Positions 2,744 to 14,466 of a stretch of DNA of 33,127 nucleotides are shown piece after piece. The stretch's first letter is position 1. The number at the start of each line of letters is the position of its first letter. The DNA is from Candidatus Heimdallarchaeota archaeon. GTDB taxonomy: Archaea; Asgardarchaeota; Heimdallarchaeia; Heimdallarchaeales; Heimdallarchaeaceae. Made by a program: the position numbers and the translations under genes. Location of the stretch: assembly GCA_030611665.1 (NCBI GenBank), contig JAUWPI010000008.1, positions 1-33,127 on the forward strand, in the 5' to 3' direction. The notes beneath the pieces are model-generated. The model did not search any database, was not told the origin of the DNA, and worked only from the letters and a program-made list of their open reading frames with translations.

Positions 2744-2832
2744 CGCACGTTATGAAACTTGGTCGAACTTGCCAGAAGGCGCTGACCGTTGTTTAGGTTG
2801 GTCCCCTCACGTGCGATGAGGGGAAGTGATTA
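2744..2832 (-). ncRNA. Candidate omega-RNA/right-end structured RNA of the TnpB1 element
   Basis: Perfect 8-bp stem 2802-2809/2817-2824 (TCCCCTCA/TGAGGGGA), its loop complementary to 2744-2749/50, and a nested hairpin 2761-2787 (GGTC/GACC with GCC-AGAA-GGC), directly downstream of the tnpB-like stop codon. Confidence 0.45.
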
Positions 2833-4737
2833 TAAGGAAGGGAGACGCGTACCAGGAAGAGAAGCGATATTTCGAGCTGCATTGCTATGTGTATTAACTT
2901 TTTTACCACATCTAGTACAAGGAGCAAGATCATAATGCCCCCGACTACGAGCAAGTGTACCTCCGCAACCATAATGGATAGAACTAGTTTGGGCAGGAGA
3001 AACATATTCAAGATTAACAGGATAGCCCAATTCTTTTGAAGCTAACCAGACTGCTTTTTTATAAATGTGTAAACTATCCGGCATGGTGTAAATGGCTTTA
3101 GCCAATGCTCCTTTGGTACCAGTAGGGTCTACTGCGAGTTGTTCTATCTTCAAGGTCTTGCATCTTTTATTGATTATAACGGAAGCAAGGAATGGAGGAA
3201 GAAGGCGAAGAATTTCACGAAGAATTCTCATTCGTCGCATATAGACTCTGTTAAGCTCTCCTTTTAGTTTGCAGAAACCAAAGGTGTCTCGATTCTTACG
3301 CTTACAAATCAATCCTATATGGAGCTCAGGGAGAACCTTATCACTCAAGTGAGTATACTTTTCCGCTAAAAGTAACAGATTAACCGGAAGTTTAACTGGT
3401 GTGTTAAATGATACCATATGTTTACCTAGACGGTTGATATCTATGCCAAGAATGGATTGGTTTTTTCCTGAGATAAAGGGAAGGTAGCTGTGGATAAGGG
3501 TAGAAGAATGGAAACAACTCAGCGTTCCTTCTAAAATCACATCAATTCTAGGTTTATAACTAGGGGCGTGTCCACTGCTGACTTGAAAGAGCTTGATTTC
3601 TGCTCCATTGTTGAGATATTCTTGTATTTTATGTGGAAAAAGAATTTGAGCAGTGAGTTTTTTCTTCCCTTTTTGTGGAAAACCTAGTTCTGTCCATCCT
3701 TGCTTCTTGACTTGCATAGTTAATTCTTTTGCATTCCCTTGGCGGGTGATAATATAGTCTTTTTTCATCAATAATTTTATCGGTAATTTTCCTTTCTTCT
3801 TTTGTTTGAATGGTAGGGGAACAACTTTAGTTATAGATAATCCTTTTACTAACTGAGGGACACTCTGCATGAACTGGTCGAAGAGTGTGAAAACAATTAT
3901 CTGCCTCACAGCAGAGAAAAGTTTTCGGGTAGGTTTACATATGGTAATTGCTAGTTGTTCAGAAAGCGTTTTGAGACTTTTCCACCGAGAGAGCTGGGGA
4001 CTATTAATCCATGAGGTAAGAAAAGGGATAACGATTTGTTGTTCCTTCTTGAGCAACTGGAGTTTGGCTAAAAATGTTTGTTGTTTTTTAGTAAGTATGG
4101 ATAAAGAAGTAAATTCATTGGTATAATAAAACAATGCATCATCGAGTGCTTGGAGTAGATTTTGTTGAGTTGTGGAAGGTAGAACATTGTTGAACTGCAG
4201 ATTATTTGGAATATAAGTTGTTTTTTGTTTCTTTCTCCAGAATGAGTCAGATAGCATCCTAGAGCTAGTTAAAAGATTAATTACATATCTTCTCTTCAAC
4301 TTCCAAAAGTTCCCTAAACTGCTTTCAGTATAGGGAGATCTACCAAAGATCATCCATTCAACCAGCTGTTGCGGATTCTTGGTGAGAAAATTCAATAATT
4401 TTTGTACTTTCTTTTCTTTGTCTCTTTTACTTTTGAGAGCTATATGTAGCCAATGGAAGGAGCTTTCTGCAATATTGGGGCTCTTTCCTACCTCTTTACA
4501 TAGCTTACGGGTGAAGAACCCTTCCTTAGGGTTGGCATGATACAATGTTTCAGCTTTTCTTACTATTTGTGGAGATAGAAGCGCGAGTTGTTGCTCTTCT
4601 AATGCTCTTATTCTTTGATTAATTTCTTCTCGTTGGTATTGGTCTACACATTTTAGTGGTACCTCATAGCTCCTCATCAATTTTTTTGATGTAGAAGCAG
4701 TAAATGGTTGTGATTTGCTAACTGTTTGTGTGACCAA
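2830..4737 (-). CDS. TnpB/Cas12-superfamily RNA-guided nuclease-like protein (IS605 OrfB-like), 635 aa
   Basis: RuvC-I ILGIDINRLGKHMV, RuvC-II TLKIEQLAVDPTG, zinc region HYGC...CTRC, RuvC-III-like KKVNTHSNAARNIA; TTG start at 4737 is only one possible start. Confidence 0.78.
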   Translation of the reverse strand: MVTQTVSKSQPFTASTSKKLMRSYEVPLKCVDQYQREEINQRIRALEEQQLALLSPQIVRKAETLYHANPKEGFFTRKLCKEVGKSPNIAESSFHWLHIALKSKRDKEKKVQKLLNFLTKNPQQLVEWMIFGRSPYTESSLGNFWKLKRRYVINLLTSSRMLSDSFWRKKQKTTYIPNNLQFNNVLPSTTQQNLLQALDDALFYYTNEFTSLSILTKKQQTFLAKLQLLKKEQQIVIPFLTSWINSPQLSRWKSLKTLSEQLAITICKPTRKLFSAVRQIIVFTLFDQFMQSVPQLVKGLSITKVVPLPFKQKKKGKLPIKLLMKKDYIITRQGNAKELTMQVKKQGWTELGFPQKGKKKLTAQILFPHKIQEYLNNGAEIKLFQVSSGHAPSYKPRIDVILEGTLSCFHSSTLIHSYLPFISGKNQSILGIDINRLGKHMVSFNTPVKLPVNLLLLAEKYTHLSDKVLPELHIGLICKRKNRDTFGFCKLKGELNRVYMRRMRILREILRLLPPFLASVIINKRCKTLKIEQLAVDPTGTKGALAKAIYTMPDSLHIYKKAVWLASKELGYPVNLEYVSPAQTSSIHYGCGGTLARSRGHYDLAPCTRCGKKVNTHSNAARNIASLPGTRLPSL

Positions 4738-7024: not shown

Positions 7025-7780
7025 TTACATTCCCAGTAACCCTGGAAACCAATATTTGGTTCCTTCGGAATAACTTCTATCTACTCTTGCAATAGCGTGC
7101 TCTTCAAAGAATGTTAAACATCTATCAATTCTTTCTTCTGACCAGTCAGTTTTCATCAGAAGATTTTCTTTCGTTACATACCCTGTTCTGGATGCATAGC
7201 TCAATATGATGTCATGATCTGGGCTGAATTCAACTGGAGTAAACTCTAAGATTTTGACACCAGATTCAAGGTTTTTGTATGGACTAATGAGTTTAGAATT
7301 GATAAGTTTCTCAATAGATCTATACATATCATCAATTGAAACCATTTTTCCTGGTCTGATCTTGTTTAATTGAGTAAATAATTCTCCTACTGACATGATT
7401 CCTCCATTATCTGGAGTCGAACTCTGACCTAATTCTAATATCTCATTTGCTAAGATATCGTAGAACCCTTTACCAGTTAATTTATCTTTGAGTGTAGGTG
7501 CTTCTTTCCAATCAAAACGACCAATTTCTGCAGGTAATCCTAATTCGTCTCGTAACCCTGCAAGTTTATCATAATATTCTTTATTCTCCGAGATTTTGTC
7601 ACCATATTTTTTCTCGAATTTCTTCAACTGTTTCTTAATAACTTGAATATTGTCCATCATTTGCTGTAATTCTTGAATCATTAATTCAGCATCTTTTACT
7701 TGGAAAGCAGACTTTATCTTGATTTTTTTCTCTATGTCTCTTAAACCCACTTCAATCTCCAAATAGTAATTGTATAGCAC
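7025..7780 (-). CDS. ESCRT-II EAP30-family protein (Vps22/Vps36-like)
   Basis: Coiled coil, then winged-helix segments, ending in EEHAIARVDRSYSEGTKYWFPGLLG like SNF8/Vps22 C-termini; adjacent to Vps25. Confidence 0.8.
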   Translation of the reverse strand: MLYNYYLEIEVGLRDIEKKIKIKSAFQVKDAELMIQELQQMMDNIQVIKKQLKKFEKKYGDKISENKEYYDKLAGLRDELGLPAEIGRFDWKEAPTLKDKLTGKGFYDILANEILELGQSSTPDNGGIMSVGELFTQLNKIRPGKMVSIDDMYRSIEKLINSKLISPYKNLESGVKILEFTPVEFSPDHDIILSYASRTGYVTKENLLMKTDWSEERIDRCLTFFEEHAIARVDRSYSEGTKYWFPGLLGM

Positions 7781-7898
7781 TTATTTATAATTAGCTATTT
7801 ATTCCCCTGTCTCATCGAGATAAAAAGGATTAACTTAAATGGACTTTTCTATGTGAATATTACCGGGTTTTTTATAAGAAAATAGTACTAAAAGAAAG

Positions 7899-9134
7899 AT
7901 GACTAAAGTCTTGCGTGTGGAGTGCATAGAAGTGGACTATCACCCCAATTTGAGCATGCTGTGTCATCTGGTGAAAAATCTCTACAATCGAACAAATTTT
8001 CTTATAAAAGCTGAGTTGAAAAAAAACAAACTTTTGTTCTATTACGATCTTGACAAAGTGTTAAAGCACGAAGAATGTTACCGTGTCCTTCCTGCTCATG
8101 TTGCTCAACACATGCTCAAACTCCTCTGTGGGAATTGGAAGGGATATTTTAATGCGCTGAAGGAGTGGAAAAAAGATCCTTCATTGTTCTTCGCTATACC
8201 TCAATCTCCTAACTATAAAAGTAAGGATGGGGAAGTGGTAGCCATCTTTTCCAACCAGCAAGTAAGAATCGTTAATGGCTAGTTGGTTCTACCTAAGAAA
8301 GTGGGGTATTGTTACAAAACAAGACTGACAGAGCACGCAGAACTTAGAGAGGTTAGAATAATTCTTCGCAGACCAGGATATACGCTTGAGATAGTCTATA
8401 GAAAAAGTTTACCTAAACTCCGGAAAAAACATATCAGAAAAGGTGGAATAGATTTAGGGATGGATAACCTTGCAGCTTTTGTGGATAACCTCGGAGGTCA
8501 GCCGATTGTTATCAAAGATGCAGGGAAAGGAATAAAAAGTATAACACAGTATTATCTAAAAAAACAGAAAGCGTTACAAATACAGTATAGTCAACAGCAG
8601 AGAAAACAGCTGAAAGGAAAGCAAAGAGTAGTGTATGGGTATGCCTATCACAAACTCAAAGAGAAGTGGAGAAGGAAACTAAAGGATGGGATACACAAGT
8701 TAACCAGTTATTTGATTGACTTGTGTGTTGAACGTGGAATCCATGAAGTAGTGATTGGCTACAATAAGAAATGGAAACAGAATCTTCACTTCTGGAAAAA
8801 AGTTACCCAGATGTTTGTCACTATTCCTTTCCTGCGAATCATCAATCTTTTGAAGTATAAAGGAGCAGAACGAGGCATAAAAGTGGAAACCATTCCTGAA
8901 GAGTTCACCTCTAAAAGCAGTTTCCTCGATAACGAATTCCCCAAAGAACGACAGAAGTACAAGGGAAAAAGAATCAAACGAGGGTTGTTCCGTTCATCCC
9001 AAGGTTACCTCATTAATGCTGCATACAATATTTTAGTTAAAAGCGATTCGAAAGCCTTGCCTAAGCGCAATGTGAACGGGGTAGGAGGATATGTGATGTA
9101 TCCACTCAGAGTGAGTATTGAACATATCAATTAA
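7899..9134 (+). pseudogene. TnpB (IS605 OrfB family), interrupted by in-frame TAG at 8280-8282
   Basis: 7899-8282 and 8283-9134 share a frame and are separated only by TAG; N-terminal TnpB motifs (LPAHVAQHMLKLLCGNWKGYF), GGIDLGMDNLAAF, VVIGYNKKWKQ, TIPEEFTSKSSFLD, GKRIKRGLFRSSQGYLINAAYNI. Confidence 0.85.
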
Positions 9135-9139
9135 TATGT
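9122..9139. repeat. Inverted repeat ACATAT-CAATTA-ATATGT over the tnpB2 stop codon
   Basis: 6-bp perfect arms at 9122-9127 and 9134-9139; possible element end, RNA hairpin or terminator stem. Confidence 0.35.
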
Positions 9140-9258
9140 CCTATACGATGACCTCTAAGAAACAATCTCAACTTCCTTGTTAAAAGACAACTCGGGACAA
9201 CAACCCATCATATCTTCGCAAATCTGAATACTTTCAAAATATAAATAATCGGTAAAAA

Positions 9259-9573
9259 CTAGAAGATACTTGGTAAAATTTGTATCCAATTCTTTATTTT
9301 CCCTGTTATCTGATTTACTTCTCGCGGGGAAAGGAATGCGGCAAGTTTATTCTTGTATTTCCTATAAAGAGATTTGTATACCTCTTTCATCTCGTCTCCC
9401 AATCTCTCCCCCCTTGGGTTGATTTTTCCAATTTCCAAAGTAATCTCCTCTATCTCTTCAAGGATGTAACCAACATCTATCTTAATCTCTATAAGATTGA
9501 TTAATTCAAATAATGACTGTCTCATGTTGGTAAATTGTGCGTCTTTAGCGTTTTTTTCTAGCACGAAAATCAC
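9259..9573 (-). CDS. Small helical protein of unknown function, last gene of the Ub-E1-UEV run (candidate ESCRT-I partner)
   Basis: 104-aa ORF, GTG start, co-directional and 70 nt downstream of the UEV/Vps23-like gene; amphipathic helical composition. Confidence 0.55.
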   Translation of the reverse strand: MIFVLEKNAKDAQFTNMRQSLFELINLIEIKIDVGYILEEIEEITLEIGKINPRGERLGDEMKEVYKSLYRKYKNKLAAFLSPREVNQITGKIKNWIQILPSIF

Positions 9574-9643
9574 CCGGTTATATCTTGATGGACCTTAATG
9601 GAAAAGAATTGTAAGAAGAGAGGATAAGTCCTTCTTCGTTTTA

Positions 9644-11047
9644 TTATAATTCTTTGAGAACTCGTCGAAAATCATTCAGCCATCTCGCTGCTTGGAATTC
9701 AAGTTTTTCACAATCTTCTTCCTTTATTACCTCTTCAGGTTTGTATTTACCAATAATTTTACGCCAATTATTGATATCTCCAATAACCCAATGGTCTTTA
9801 GGAATTGATGGAAATGTTTTGAGAATGTGTAGCATTTCATCCATATCTGCTAACAGTAAATCTGCTCTGGCTACCGAACGAAGTCTTGTTAAGTCGATCA
9901 ACTCAATTGCAGAAGAAACATAATCCGCAGTTTTTGTGGGCATTTTCTTCAATGAGTCAAAGGGTATGGATACTGCATCAGCAGTTTCAACTCCTTCAGC
10001 TACACGGAGATGTCGAATACCTTTAGGATATTTATTATCTAGTTTCTCTTTTTTGATAAAGCTTTCAAGCTGGAACCCAACTTTTTCTAGTTGCATTCGT
10101 GATTTGAAAATACTTCTAATAAGAGAGCGCAATTGCTTTCTATATGCAATTTGATCTATTTCATTATTTTCATAGCTTATAGCAAGATTATCTAGTGTTA
10201 CAATTGAAGCATAAAGGTTAGCTTCTAATTCGAGGTTTCTTTCATCTAGTTTTGACATACTACCACTCTTTTTGACATGATTATGCTGTTTTTCAGCTTT
10301 ATAACCATTTTTAGAGTACCGTTTATACAATTTCAAGAAATCCACGGTTGTCATGTCCCCATCTTCAAATTTTTCTTGAAGTACTTCTAAAGTTTCTTGA
10401 ATTGCATAGCTTTCAGCTTTAAGATTTTCCTCTAAGGAGATCGATATTTCTTTGTCTGATCTATCAACTTTGATACCACCTTCTTTTAGTAAAGAAGTTC
10501 TTTCTTTCTCAATTTTTCTGCCTATGTCATCAATCTTTGATTGATAATCCATAATTGTGTCTTCAATTTCCCGTTTTTCAGTCTCTATAATAGTTTCTTT
10601 TTTAGTTGCAACCATTTCAACTTGAGGAAGCTGTTTGACAGGGATGGTAGCTCTTTGTAATCCTATATATTTCTCCTTTTTCTTTGATCTCTTTGTTTTA
10701 TATGGTTTAGCTGGAACACGGGTAAATAGCTGCTTTGTATCATTGATCACGTCATGAACATGATAACTTCTGTTCCATTCTGCTAGTATTTTAATGTTCA
10801 AGGTTCCATCATCATCAGTATTAGGATGATTCACTTTTGGTGTAATATCAACAAAAGGAGCTATATCGGGGAACCCATCTTGAATGAAAATATTTGCAAA
10901 GATAGGAATTTCAGTTCCTTCAATTGTGCCTACATAACCTTTCCAGTGTTTAAGATTACCTCTTACCGGTTCGAATCCTACTGCATTTTCATATATTAAT
11001 TGCGTTTCATTTGCAAGGATGTAATCATCTGTAGATATTTGTCTCAC
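9644..11047 (-). CDS. UEV (E2-like, no catalytic Cys) plus coiled-coil plus C-terminal helical domain; Vps23/TSG101-like ESCRT-I protein
   Basis: E2 fold signature HPNTDDDGTLNIKILAEWNRSYHVHDVINDTKQLF with Asn at the catalytic Cys position; long coiled coil; C-terminal helical region resembling a steadiness-box/ESCRT-I core. GTG start. Confidence 0.75.
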   Translation of the reverse strand: MRQISTDDYILANETQLIYENAVGFEPVRGNLKHWKGYVGTIEGTEIPIFANIFIQDGFPDIAPFVDITPKVNHPNTDDDGTLNIKILAEWNRSYHVHDVINDTKQLFTRVPAKPYKTKRSKKKEKYIGLQRATIPVKQLPQVEMVATKKETIIETEKREIEDTIMDYQSKIDDIGRKIEKERTSLLKEGGIKVDRSDKEISISLEENLKAESYAIQETLEVLQEKFEDGDMTTVDFLKLYKRYSKNGYKAEKQHNHVKKSGSMSKLDERNLELEANLYASIVTLDNLAISYENNEIDQIAYRKQLRSLIRSIFKSRMQLEKVGFQLESFIKKEKLDNKYPKGIRHLRVAEGVETADAVSIPFDSLKKMPTKTADYVSSAIELIDLTRLRSVARADLLLADMDEMLHILKTFPSIPKDHWVIGDINNWRKIIGKYKPEEVIKEEDCEKLEFQAARWLNDFRRVLKEL

Positions 11048-11133: not shown

Positions 11134-12138
11134 TCATTCTGTTATCTGAAGGATAATTATTATCGGTTTTGCAAGATTATTATCTAGAACAAACACCGTT
11201 TCTTTACTTTTAGAGATAGAATCTTTGATTAATACATTGGAATCTAGTAACCTTCCCTTTATCATTAACTCTGGTTTTTTCAATCCATAAGTTAAGGCTA
11301 ACCGAACTTCTAACTCTTTGACAGTTTCATCTGAATGAGCTACAAACTCTATCTGTTCAAGCTTATACAACTCTCCACAGGTAGGACATTCTTCAGATCG
11401 AACCAATTCCAAAATGGTAGTTGCATTATTTAACCCATCATAAAAGAGGTAGTTTTGAAGATGATTACCAACATTTAGAATCAGTTTCAAAGCTTCTTGG
11501 GCCATGATACCTCCAATGATTGACGATAATGTTGCAACAGCTGGAAGAGGAGGTTCCTTCTCTATTTCTCCTCTATCTTTTTTCCTTTCCTCACCAAAAG
11601 GAGTACAGGCTTGAGCTAATTCTTCTTCAGGAACCAAAGGTTGGCACTCAAAACACGCCGTTTCGTAAGGAATGATAACTTGAGCATTTCCTAAAAAAGC
11701 AAACATGCCACCTGTAACTAATGGTTTTTTCACTCTGACAGCCATTGAATTGATCCATCTACGTCCAAGAAATGTATCTAAACAAGAAACTATTACATCT
11801 GCCTCTTCATATACAGATACAGAAACCTTTTCCATCTTCTTATGATAGAATTCAATGTTTACTGTTGGATTTACTTCCTTCAATCTTTTTGCAGCAGTTT
11901 CTGATTTAGAGCTTCCTACATCACTGTCACGATATAATAGTTGTCTGTTGAGATTGGATGTTTCAATTGTGTCAAAATCGATTATGATTAATTTACCAAT
12001 TCCTGATGAAACAAGAATGGTTCCTACATAACTGCCAATTGCGCCAACTCCAATAAGAACTATTGTGCTATCAGAAAGAGTATCTTGATTCCATCCTGGT
12101 ATCAACTGCTGTCTAGAGTAACGATTATCATATGTCAT
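11134..12138 (-). CDS. E1-like ubiquitin-activating enzyme (ThiF/UBA superfamily)
   Basis: GVGAIGSYVGTILVSSGIGKLIIIDFDTIETSNLNRQLLY, zinc CFEC...CPTC, ACTPFGE candidate catalytic Cys, SSIIGGIMAQEALKLIL; ORF opens at 12153 but ATG 12138 (MTYDNRYSRQ) preferred. Confidence 0.92.
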   Translation of the reverse strand: MTYDNRYSRQQLIPGWNQDTLSDSTIVLIGVGAIGSYVGTILVSSGIGKLIIIDFDTIETSNLNRQLLYRDSDVGSSKSETAAKRLKEVNPTVNIEFYHKKMEKVSVSVYEEADVIVSCLDTFLGRRWINSMAVRVKKPLVTGGMFAFLGNAQVIIPYETACFECQPLVPEEELAQACTPFGEERKKDRGEIEKEPPLPAVATLSSIIGGIMAQEALKLILNVGNHLQNYLFYDGLNNATTILELVRSEECPTCGELYKLEQIEFVAHSDETVKELEVRLALTYGLKKPELMIKGRLLDSNVLIKDSISKSKETVFVLDNNLAKPIIIILQITE

Positions 12139-12294
12139 CAAATCACAAGCCAACGATATGATACTATTAGTTTCTGATATATGTTTCTTTTTGAACAGCT
12201 AAAAACAGTAGTGAAAACTCAGAAAATTGAGTTTTCAAATAAAAATACAAATGTAAACTGTAAAATCAAAAGAAGAAAGGGATTTAGATATGAA

Positions 12295-12531
12295 TTAATA
12301 ACCGCCTTTAGTTCTGGCAATTAGATAGCATTTGTCTCCATCCATCATACCAGTTTGCTTCAAAATTTCGCTATCATCAAGCTGTTTTCCATGGAAAACG
12401 ATAATCACAGTATTAGCTGGAATCTTTTTCTTTTTAGAGACTTCTCTCTTTAATTGTGCAACTGTTGATTGTGAATCCACATCCAGCTCCAATGACCCTC
12501 CACCTATAGCGGTAACAACGCTGATTCTCAT
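12295..12531 (-). CDS. Ubiquitin-like modifier precursor ending in KGGY
   Basis: 78-aa beta-grasp; IVFHGKQLDDSEILKQTGMMDGDKCYLIARTKGG aligns without gaps to the ubiquitin C-terminal half. Confidence 0.93.
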   Translation of the reverse strand: MRISVVTAIGGGSLELDVDSQSTVAQLKREVSKKKKIPANTVIIVFHGKQLDDSEILKQTGMMDGDKCYLIARTKGGY

Positions 12532-13088: not shown

Positions 13089-13478
13089 TCAATCTACTGT
13101 TCTCTCTTTCTCTCCCTTTCTTTTAATAGTGATTGATGGAGGTATGCCCTCGATTTCTCTTTCAAGTTTCTTTATCCCTAATCTAGTGATTTGTTTGCCT
13201 TCCATATAACCTATTTTTACCATATATAGTAGATTTTTGAAAATAGTTTCAGCGGTCATTTTTTTGTTATGTTTTTCATAGAGACTGAACCAATAATTAT
13301 ATGCTTCTGGAACTAAAAAAAACTTCATCAGAGCTAGTTTATCTTTCTCTTCAACACTAGCTGGAGCTTGCTCAGATTTTTTTAGTTCTTCCATCCTCTG
13401 TTTTCTCAGATTAGCAATTTCAAGAAGCTCTTGAGCCTTTTTTTTCCGGATTTTGTCTAACTCATTGTCCGTAGTCAT
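13089..13478 (-). CDS. PDCD5/TFAR19-like DNA-binding protein
   Basis: DELDKIRKKKAQELLE N-terminus and C-terminal GYMEGKQITRLGIKKLEREIEGIPPSITIKRKGE resemble the archaeal PDCD5 layout. Confidence 0.55.
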   Translation of the reverse strand: MTTDNELDKIRKKKAQELLEIANLRKQRMEELKKSEQAPASVEEKDKLALMKFFLVPEAYNYWFSLYEKHNKKMTAETIFKNLLYMVKIGYMEGKQITRLGIKKLEREIEGIPPSITIKRKGEKERTVD

Positions 13479-13640: not shown

Positions 13641-14466
13641 CTATATTACTTTGCCAACAAACCAGAGTAGAAATGCAATAACCATAAACAATGATGCACT
13701 CTTAAATATAAGTTTAGAAATTTTCTCAGTTGGTTTAATGAGGTTCACAATTGATAGACCAATCATAATAACCCCAACAAAAATAACTATTACATTGATT
13801 ACAATGTTAATGTCAAGAAGTATACTGATAGCAATAGCTGTGAACGAACTAATGAGTGAGGATATTGTAATAACTATAATTGTCTCCTTTTTGCTTCTCA
13901 CTACAGGCCACATTGGTACTTCTGCATTTTTGTAACCTTCCAATGTTTTTGGTATTAGTGCAAGTGTAAGAATGTGCAAAGGTGGTCTGTAAGCGGCAAG
14001 AGGTTCAGTTATTCTTGGAATACGAGCATATGTCAAAGCGTCATATAGGATGTTAGCTGTTCCTCTATGGTCCGGATGTCGGGTGTTCATTGACCATGTG
14101 ATAATTGCATCGGGTTTGATTTCTGCAATTACTTTAGCCATTTTAAGGGCGCTGTCTCTTGTTGCTCTAACAAGAAGTATCTCCGAACCCTAAAAACATG
14201 GTCTGGCTACCAATAATCTCTCCTACTACTTTCCCTTGTTCCTCCCTAATTTTCTTGACTTCATTAAAAGACATTTTATCGAAGTGGGAAGCCATTTCAC
14301 CACTTGTCGTCCAAACTAAAACAACTTGATCTCCCTTATCAACATGATTTGAAAGTGTGCCAATACATCCAATCTCATCATCTGGATGTGCAAAACATGC
14401 TAGAATGGTTTTTTTCTCATTGGTCATTAATTTATCTAAAGAAATTGTATTTTTAAATTTGTGCAT
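13641..14466 (-). pseudogene. PIG-L/LmbE-family deacetylase with C-terminal transmembrane region, split by a single-base frameshift near 14170-14185
   Basis: AHPDDE in the upstream ORF (14167-14466) and RHPDHRGTAN in the downstream ORF (13641-14141); the downstream frame reads through LVRATRDSALK upstream of its annotated start, joining GDTS in a +1 shift. Confidence 0.75.

Follow-up and report, generated by a model that had tools for sequence, protein, structure and literature searches.

The window analysed here, a 33,127-nt stretch of DNA from a Candidatus Heimdallarchaeota archaeon, contains a 104-residue ORF whose product (below, the orphan protein) is very probably a free-standing and diverged paralogue of the Vps28 C-terminal domain (Vps28-CTD), a four-helix bundle encoded within a ubiquitin-E1-Vps23/Vps28-orphan-Vps22 operon. 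The slot between vps28 and vps22 is occupied by an orphan gene in several other Asgard families as well, and the gene is an old, conserved extra part of the ESCRT gene cluster. The first-pass annotation had proposed a missing, Vps28-CTD-like subunit of ESCRT-I. Family profiles, the predicted four-helix bundle and gene order uphold the likeness to Vps28-CTD. The word missing has to be dropped because the adjacent gene, a Vps23-Vps28 fusion, already holds a complete VPS28 domain (Table 1); the orphan protein is therefore an additional CTD paralogue. Its homology to Vps28-CTD would also be expected if it were the missing Vps28 itself, split from Vps23, as the annotation worded it. This reading is refuted by the fusion and is opposed by the coexistence of full-length vps28 and the orphan gene in other families, which leaves it very improbable.

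Table 1. Features of the ESCRT locus in the window
Feature	Position (nt)	Strand	Description and evidence
Orphan (stand-alone Vps28-CTD paralogue, very probable)	9259..9573	-	104 aa, four-helix bundle H2-29, H34-49, H53-73, H83-103
Orphan helix 4 (residues 83-103), segment likened to Vps28-CTD in the first-pass annotation	9265..9327	-	Profile alignment, AlphaFold
Vps23-Vps28 fusion	9644..11047	-	467 aa: UEV 31-120, Vps23 core 208-246, VPS28 276-464; Pfam
Complete VPS28 domain within the fusion (headpiece part and own C-terminal four-helix bundle)	9656..10222	-	Pfam VPS28 E 4.6e-11, profile 2-188/188
Vps22 (EAP30), next operon gene, split from orphan by insertion	7025..7780	-	Pfam EAP30 2.3e-21
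E1-like ThiF-family enzyme	11134..12153	-	Pfam ThiF 8e-62
Ubiquitin-like protein	12295..12531	-	Pfam ubiquitin 1.3e-13
TnpB (OrfB_IS605) insertion element, between orphan and vps22	7789..9211 (~1.4 kb)	+	Frame broken by TAG 8280-8282

The orphan ORF begins with GTG. It follows the stop codon of the fusion gene after 70 nt (9574-9643) and runs in the same direction. ORF mapping and the helices of the AlphaFold model confirmed the position, strand, spacing and all-helical nature that had been read from the letters. The gene is present in one copy in the 2.74 Mb draft genome. Comparison with four close relatives gave dN/dS values of 0.07-0.26 (about 0.1), and the neighbouring gene has a value of ~0.09. 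The antisense frame overlapping the orphan gene, checked in one relative, is not open and contains stops. The ORF is a genuine gene under purifying selection and not a chance ORF. The adjoining TnpB element, the GTG start and the lack of a database family might suggest an ORF open by chance, or one carried as cargo by the neighbouring transposon. The low dN/dS, the occurrence of the gene in relatives without the TnpB element and its orthologues across the phylum reduce this reading to a negligible chance. The exact start codon is uncertain, and translation could instead begin at a GTG at residue 4. In the close relative Heimdallarchaeota HM4_B41, the orphan gene (L125:5692-6006) has a TGA at codon 3; therefore its translation starts further downstream than the annotated GTG of the window.

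Gene order was compared among the relatives. The orphan gene lies immediately 3' of vps28 in 42 of 43 genomes, and in the remaining one (G061) the contig stops there. The pairing with its ESCRT-I neighbour is thus conserved in relatives. In the window's own family (f1) vps28 is fused to vps23; it is a separate gene in the other families that have the orphan. The gaps between vps28 and the orphan gene range from -8 to 70 nt, with the exception of the HM4_B41 locus, where the gap is 240 nt and only the downstream part of the orphan gene is present in the ORF list. In most genomes vps22 follows on the same strand, 0-100 nt after the orphan gene or overlapping it. A 1.5 kb insertion separates the two genes in three genomes of family f6, and in the one genome examined it is an opposite-strand RsmB/F-type methyltransferase gene. 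No vps22 was found in the stretch after the orphan gene in G023, and the contig of G067 ends before any vps22. The position within the vps23-vps28-vps22 cluster is therefore conserved and co-directional, as in an Asgard ESCRT operon. The ubiquitin-E1-Vps23 run had been taken to end at the orphan gene. It only looks terminal there because the TnpB insertion parts the orphan gene from vps22, which comes 0-100 nt later in the relatives. The TnpB element is absent at the equivalent site in one relative (G007, locus L083), whose empty site reads TTATTTAT^ATCTTCGC.

Several other features of the window were noted. Beside the ESCRT-III genes, a 635-aa protein (2830-4737, minus strand) has a weak C-terminal match to the Cas12f1-like TNB domain (3e-5, below the cut-off), and we regard it as a second, larger, diverged TnpB-like protein. 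Upstream of the ubiquitin gene is a 129-aa protein (13089-13478, minus strand) with no Pfam family above the cut-off; by eye it looks PDCD5-like, and ORFs of similar size occur near ubiquitin in relatives (L081-L084). At 13641-14466 (minus strand), a PIG-L deacetylase gene lies in two frames, and the second frame continues into the C-terminal portion of a protein resembling UbiA prenyltransferases. The L083 relative has a 308-aa UbiA at the matching place, and the region in the window looks decayed or deleted.

A family profile search of 228 genomes of the phylum found orphan homologues of 93-132 aa in 43 genomes from seven families. Twenty belong to f1, one to f2 and nine to f6; the other 13 are in f9, f10, f11 and f29, outside the class. 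Weak matches in G169, G051 and G084, which lie within larger ORFs or in broken frames, were left out of this count. The same search of the 228 genomes found no orphan in families f3, f4 and f5. Three f1 genomes (G012, G015 and G016) have no orphan, and the locus is truncated or missing in all three. The close relatives are Candidatus Heimdallarchaeota, among them strain AB_125 and Ca. Heimdallarchaeum endolithica PR6. A profile built on ten f1 sequences alone recovered all distant members, the full-length ones with E-values of 2e-17 to 5e-7 and the truncated ORF of locus L118 with 4e-4; the best reversed decoy scored 0.05. A genome scan with a narrower Vps28 alignment gave 26 named loci. In one family without the orphan (f5, L072:2299-3645), an opposite-strand gene between vps28 and vps22 encodes a protein of 448 aa that has a zinc-finger-like region at its N terminus and is possibly the one that Makarova 2024 calls Znr_PH_CC_SB.

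The sequence relationship to Vps28-CTD was examined with profiles. A class-level Asgard Vps28-CTD profile was run against a database of 6,344 sequences, among them 2,200 shuffled ones and every ORF reversed. Distant orphan proteins scored 7e-9, 7e-8, 3e-7 and 1e-4, members from f1 and f6 scored 0.02 to 6, and the best decoy scored 0.45. The f11 g18 members reached ~1e-5 also under default filters. In the same database, profiles of Vps28-N, Vps23 core (steadiness box), Vps22, Vps25 and UEV gave no comparable signal with the orphan family. The window's own orphan sequence scored E 4.1 with the Vps28-CTD profile, which is not significant, and its homology therefore rests on the family chain. HHalign of the orphan family against Vps28-CTD gave an E-value of 4.5e-7 and a probability of 93% over 92 columns, with the whole domain in register; the control families (Vps28-N, Vps23, Vps22 and Vps25) gave probabilities of at most 4%. 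When HHalign was restricted to Heimdall sequences the match was weak (E 0.005), and the relationship became clear only once the distant members were added. The C-terminal segment singled out by eye in the first-pass annotation, LSPREVNQITGKIKNWIQIL, is helix 4, and the profile alignment places it on Vps28-CTD helix 4, KEEDCEKLEFQAARWLNDF. A helix-3 tryptophan (EEW) is common to Vps28-CTDs and distant orphan proteins. Because it is replaced in the Heimdall orphan proteins, their binding surface may have changed.

Pfam VPS28 (PF03997) matched no member of the orphan family, all of which were scanned. Since that model covers full-length Vps28, a half-length, diverged paralogue may escape it. The Pfam scan of the orphan protein and all family members returned only sub-threshold chance matches (e.g. 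Terpene_synth_C, 0.006), and searching PDB sequences with the profile of the family gave nothing meaningful. The orphan protein is not a full-length Vps28, being 104 aa long and having no match to the Vps28 N-terminal headpiece profile.

AlphaFold, with 26 family sequences as input, predicted four helices for the orphan protein with a pLDDT of 91.4 and a pTM of 0.81. Among the 50 Foldseek matches listed against the PDB, both chains of 2J9W were at the top, the first with the highest TM-score (0.68/0.70, rmsd 2.7, probability 0.85) and the second with TM-scores of 0.66/0.69 and a probability of 0.80. The E-value of 2J9W was 1.5, and no match reached significance by E-value, as is to be expected of so small a bundle. 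The predicted bundle and its best TM-score among the listed matches thus agree with the suggested Vps28-CTD-like structure, though at E 1.5. Four-helix bundles are a common fold. This, together with the non-significant Foldseek E-values and the silence of Pfam, is what an unrelated small four-helix operon protein (such as a chaperone or a regulator of the operon) with a convergent likeness to Vps28-CTD would give. We consider such convergence unlikely, as the profile signal is specific to Vps28-CTD, extends in register over the entire domain and outscores every decoy, and as the gene lies directly after vps28, as expected of tandem duplication. The 2J9W entry is the Xenopus Vps28-CTD (PMC4874542). 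Besides the predicted bundle, the orphan protein shares with Vps28-CTD the order of the helices in the aligned sequences; it differs in being encoded by a stand-alone gene, in lacking the Vps23-binding N-terminal half, in a shorter helix 1-2 region and in an identity of 9-10%.

A third gene after those for Vps23 and Vps28 would suit, by place and size, a Vps37-like subunit, the third of the ESCRT-I headpiece, with a steadiness-box hairpin. Such a subunit is reported absent from Asgards, which have no clear Vps37 according to Hatano et al. (PMC9192718). Vps37 and the free-standing steadiness-box protein of Loki- and Thorarchaea are, like the orphan protein, small helical proteins linked to ESCRT-I, but their fold differs and there is no profile similarity. 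The orphan protein matched neither the Vps23 steadiness-box and Vps28 N-terminal profiles nor Pfam, its prediction is a four-helix bundle and not the expected hairpin with coiled coil, and the consistent signal is to Vps28-CTD instead. A Vps37-like subunit is thus quite unlikely.

A Vps28-CTD paralogue has probable precedents. Separately encoded Vps28 C-terminal domains (Vps28_C) in some Asgards were described by Makarova et al. 2024 (PMC10936438). The orphan family is likely of the same kind; their text names neither genomes nor gene, and what is added here is the fusion with Vps23, the precise slot and the members from Heimdall archaea. The HeimAB125 ESCRT locus of Hatano et al. 2022 (PMC9192718) has the same operon as the window, including the Vps23-Vps28 fusion. 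In their account HeimAB125_14070 is the UEV-Vps28 fusion and HeimAB125_14050 is Vps22. The orphan gene of strain AB_125 (L139) lies between these two, and the main text does not mention a gene there; its product is not among the HeimAB125 interactions described. In a tree, the orphan proteins and Vps28-CTDs are parted by a single branch with support of 99/99, with long branches and an unsure placement of the f2 member. As far as these sequences go, this would fit one old duplication followed by loss.

In yeast, Vps28-CTD joins ESCRT-I to ESCRT-II via Vps36, with helix 3 at the interface (PMC4874542), and Asgards lack Vps36 (PMC9192718). The orphan protein would be made together with ESCRT-I and Vps22. 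It may serve as a small adaptor where ESCRT-I meets ESCRT-II, a second docking module of the Vps28-CTD type beside that of Vps28, and its docking target might be ESCRT-II or ESCRT-III. We give this adaptor role about an even chance. PDB entry 2J9U is the yeast Vps28-CTD with Vps36. The HeimAB125 orphan protein and Vps22 were co-folded as one read-through chain, with 12 naturally in-frame genomes as paired rows and intergenic stops read as Gly. The model reached a pTM of 0.42 and had no confident interface; its linker and the Vps22 N-terminal helices were predicted with low confidence, and Foldseek of it recovered only Vps22/Vps36. A bolder proposal, which we hold as a doubtful possibility, is that the Vps28 tail was duplicated before several Asgard classes diverged and gave rise to the orphan protein as an indispensable additional subunit of their ESCRT-I. 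The orphan protein would then couple ESCRT-I to the Vps22 homodimer, a role that later passed to Vps36 in eukaryotes.

The orphan protein is an immediate candidate for testing, as it occurs in AB_125, a strain with purified ESCRT proteins, yet goes unmentioned in the main text on them. A conserved extra Vps28-tail protein in the operon bears on how ESCRT-I and ESCRT-II communicate in Asgard archaea, which are reported to have neither Vps36 nor Vps37.
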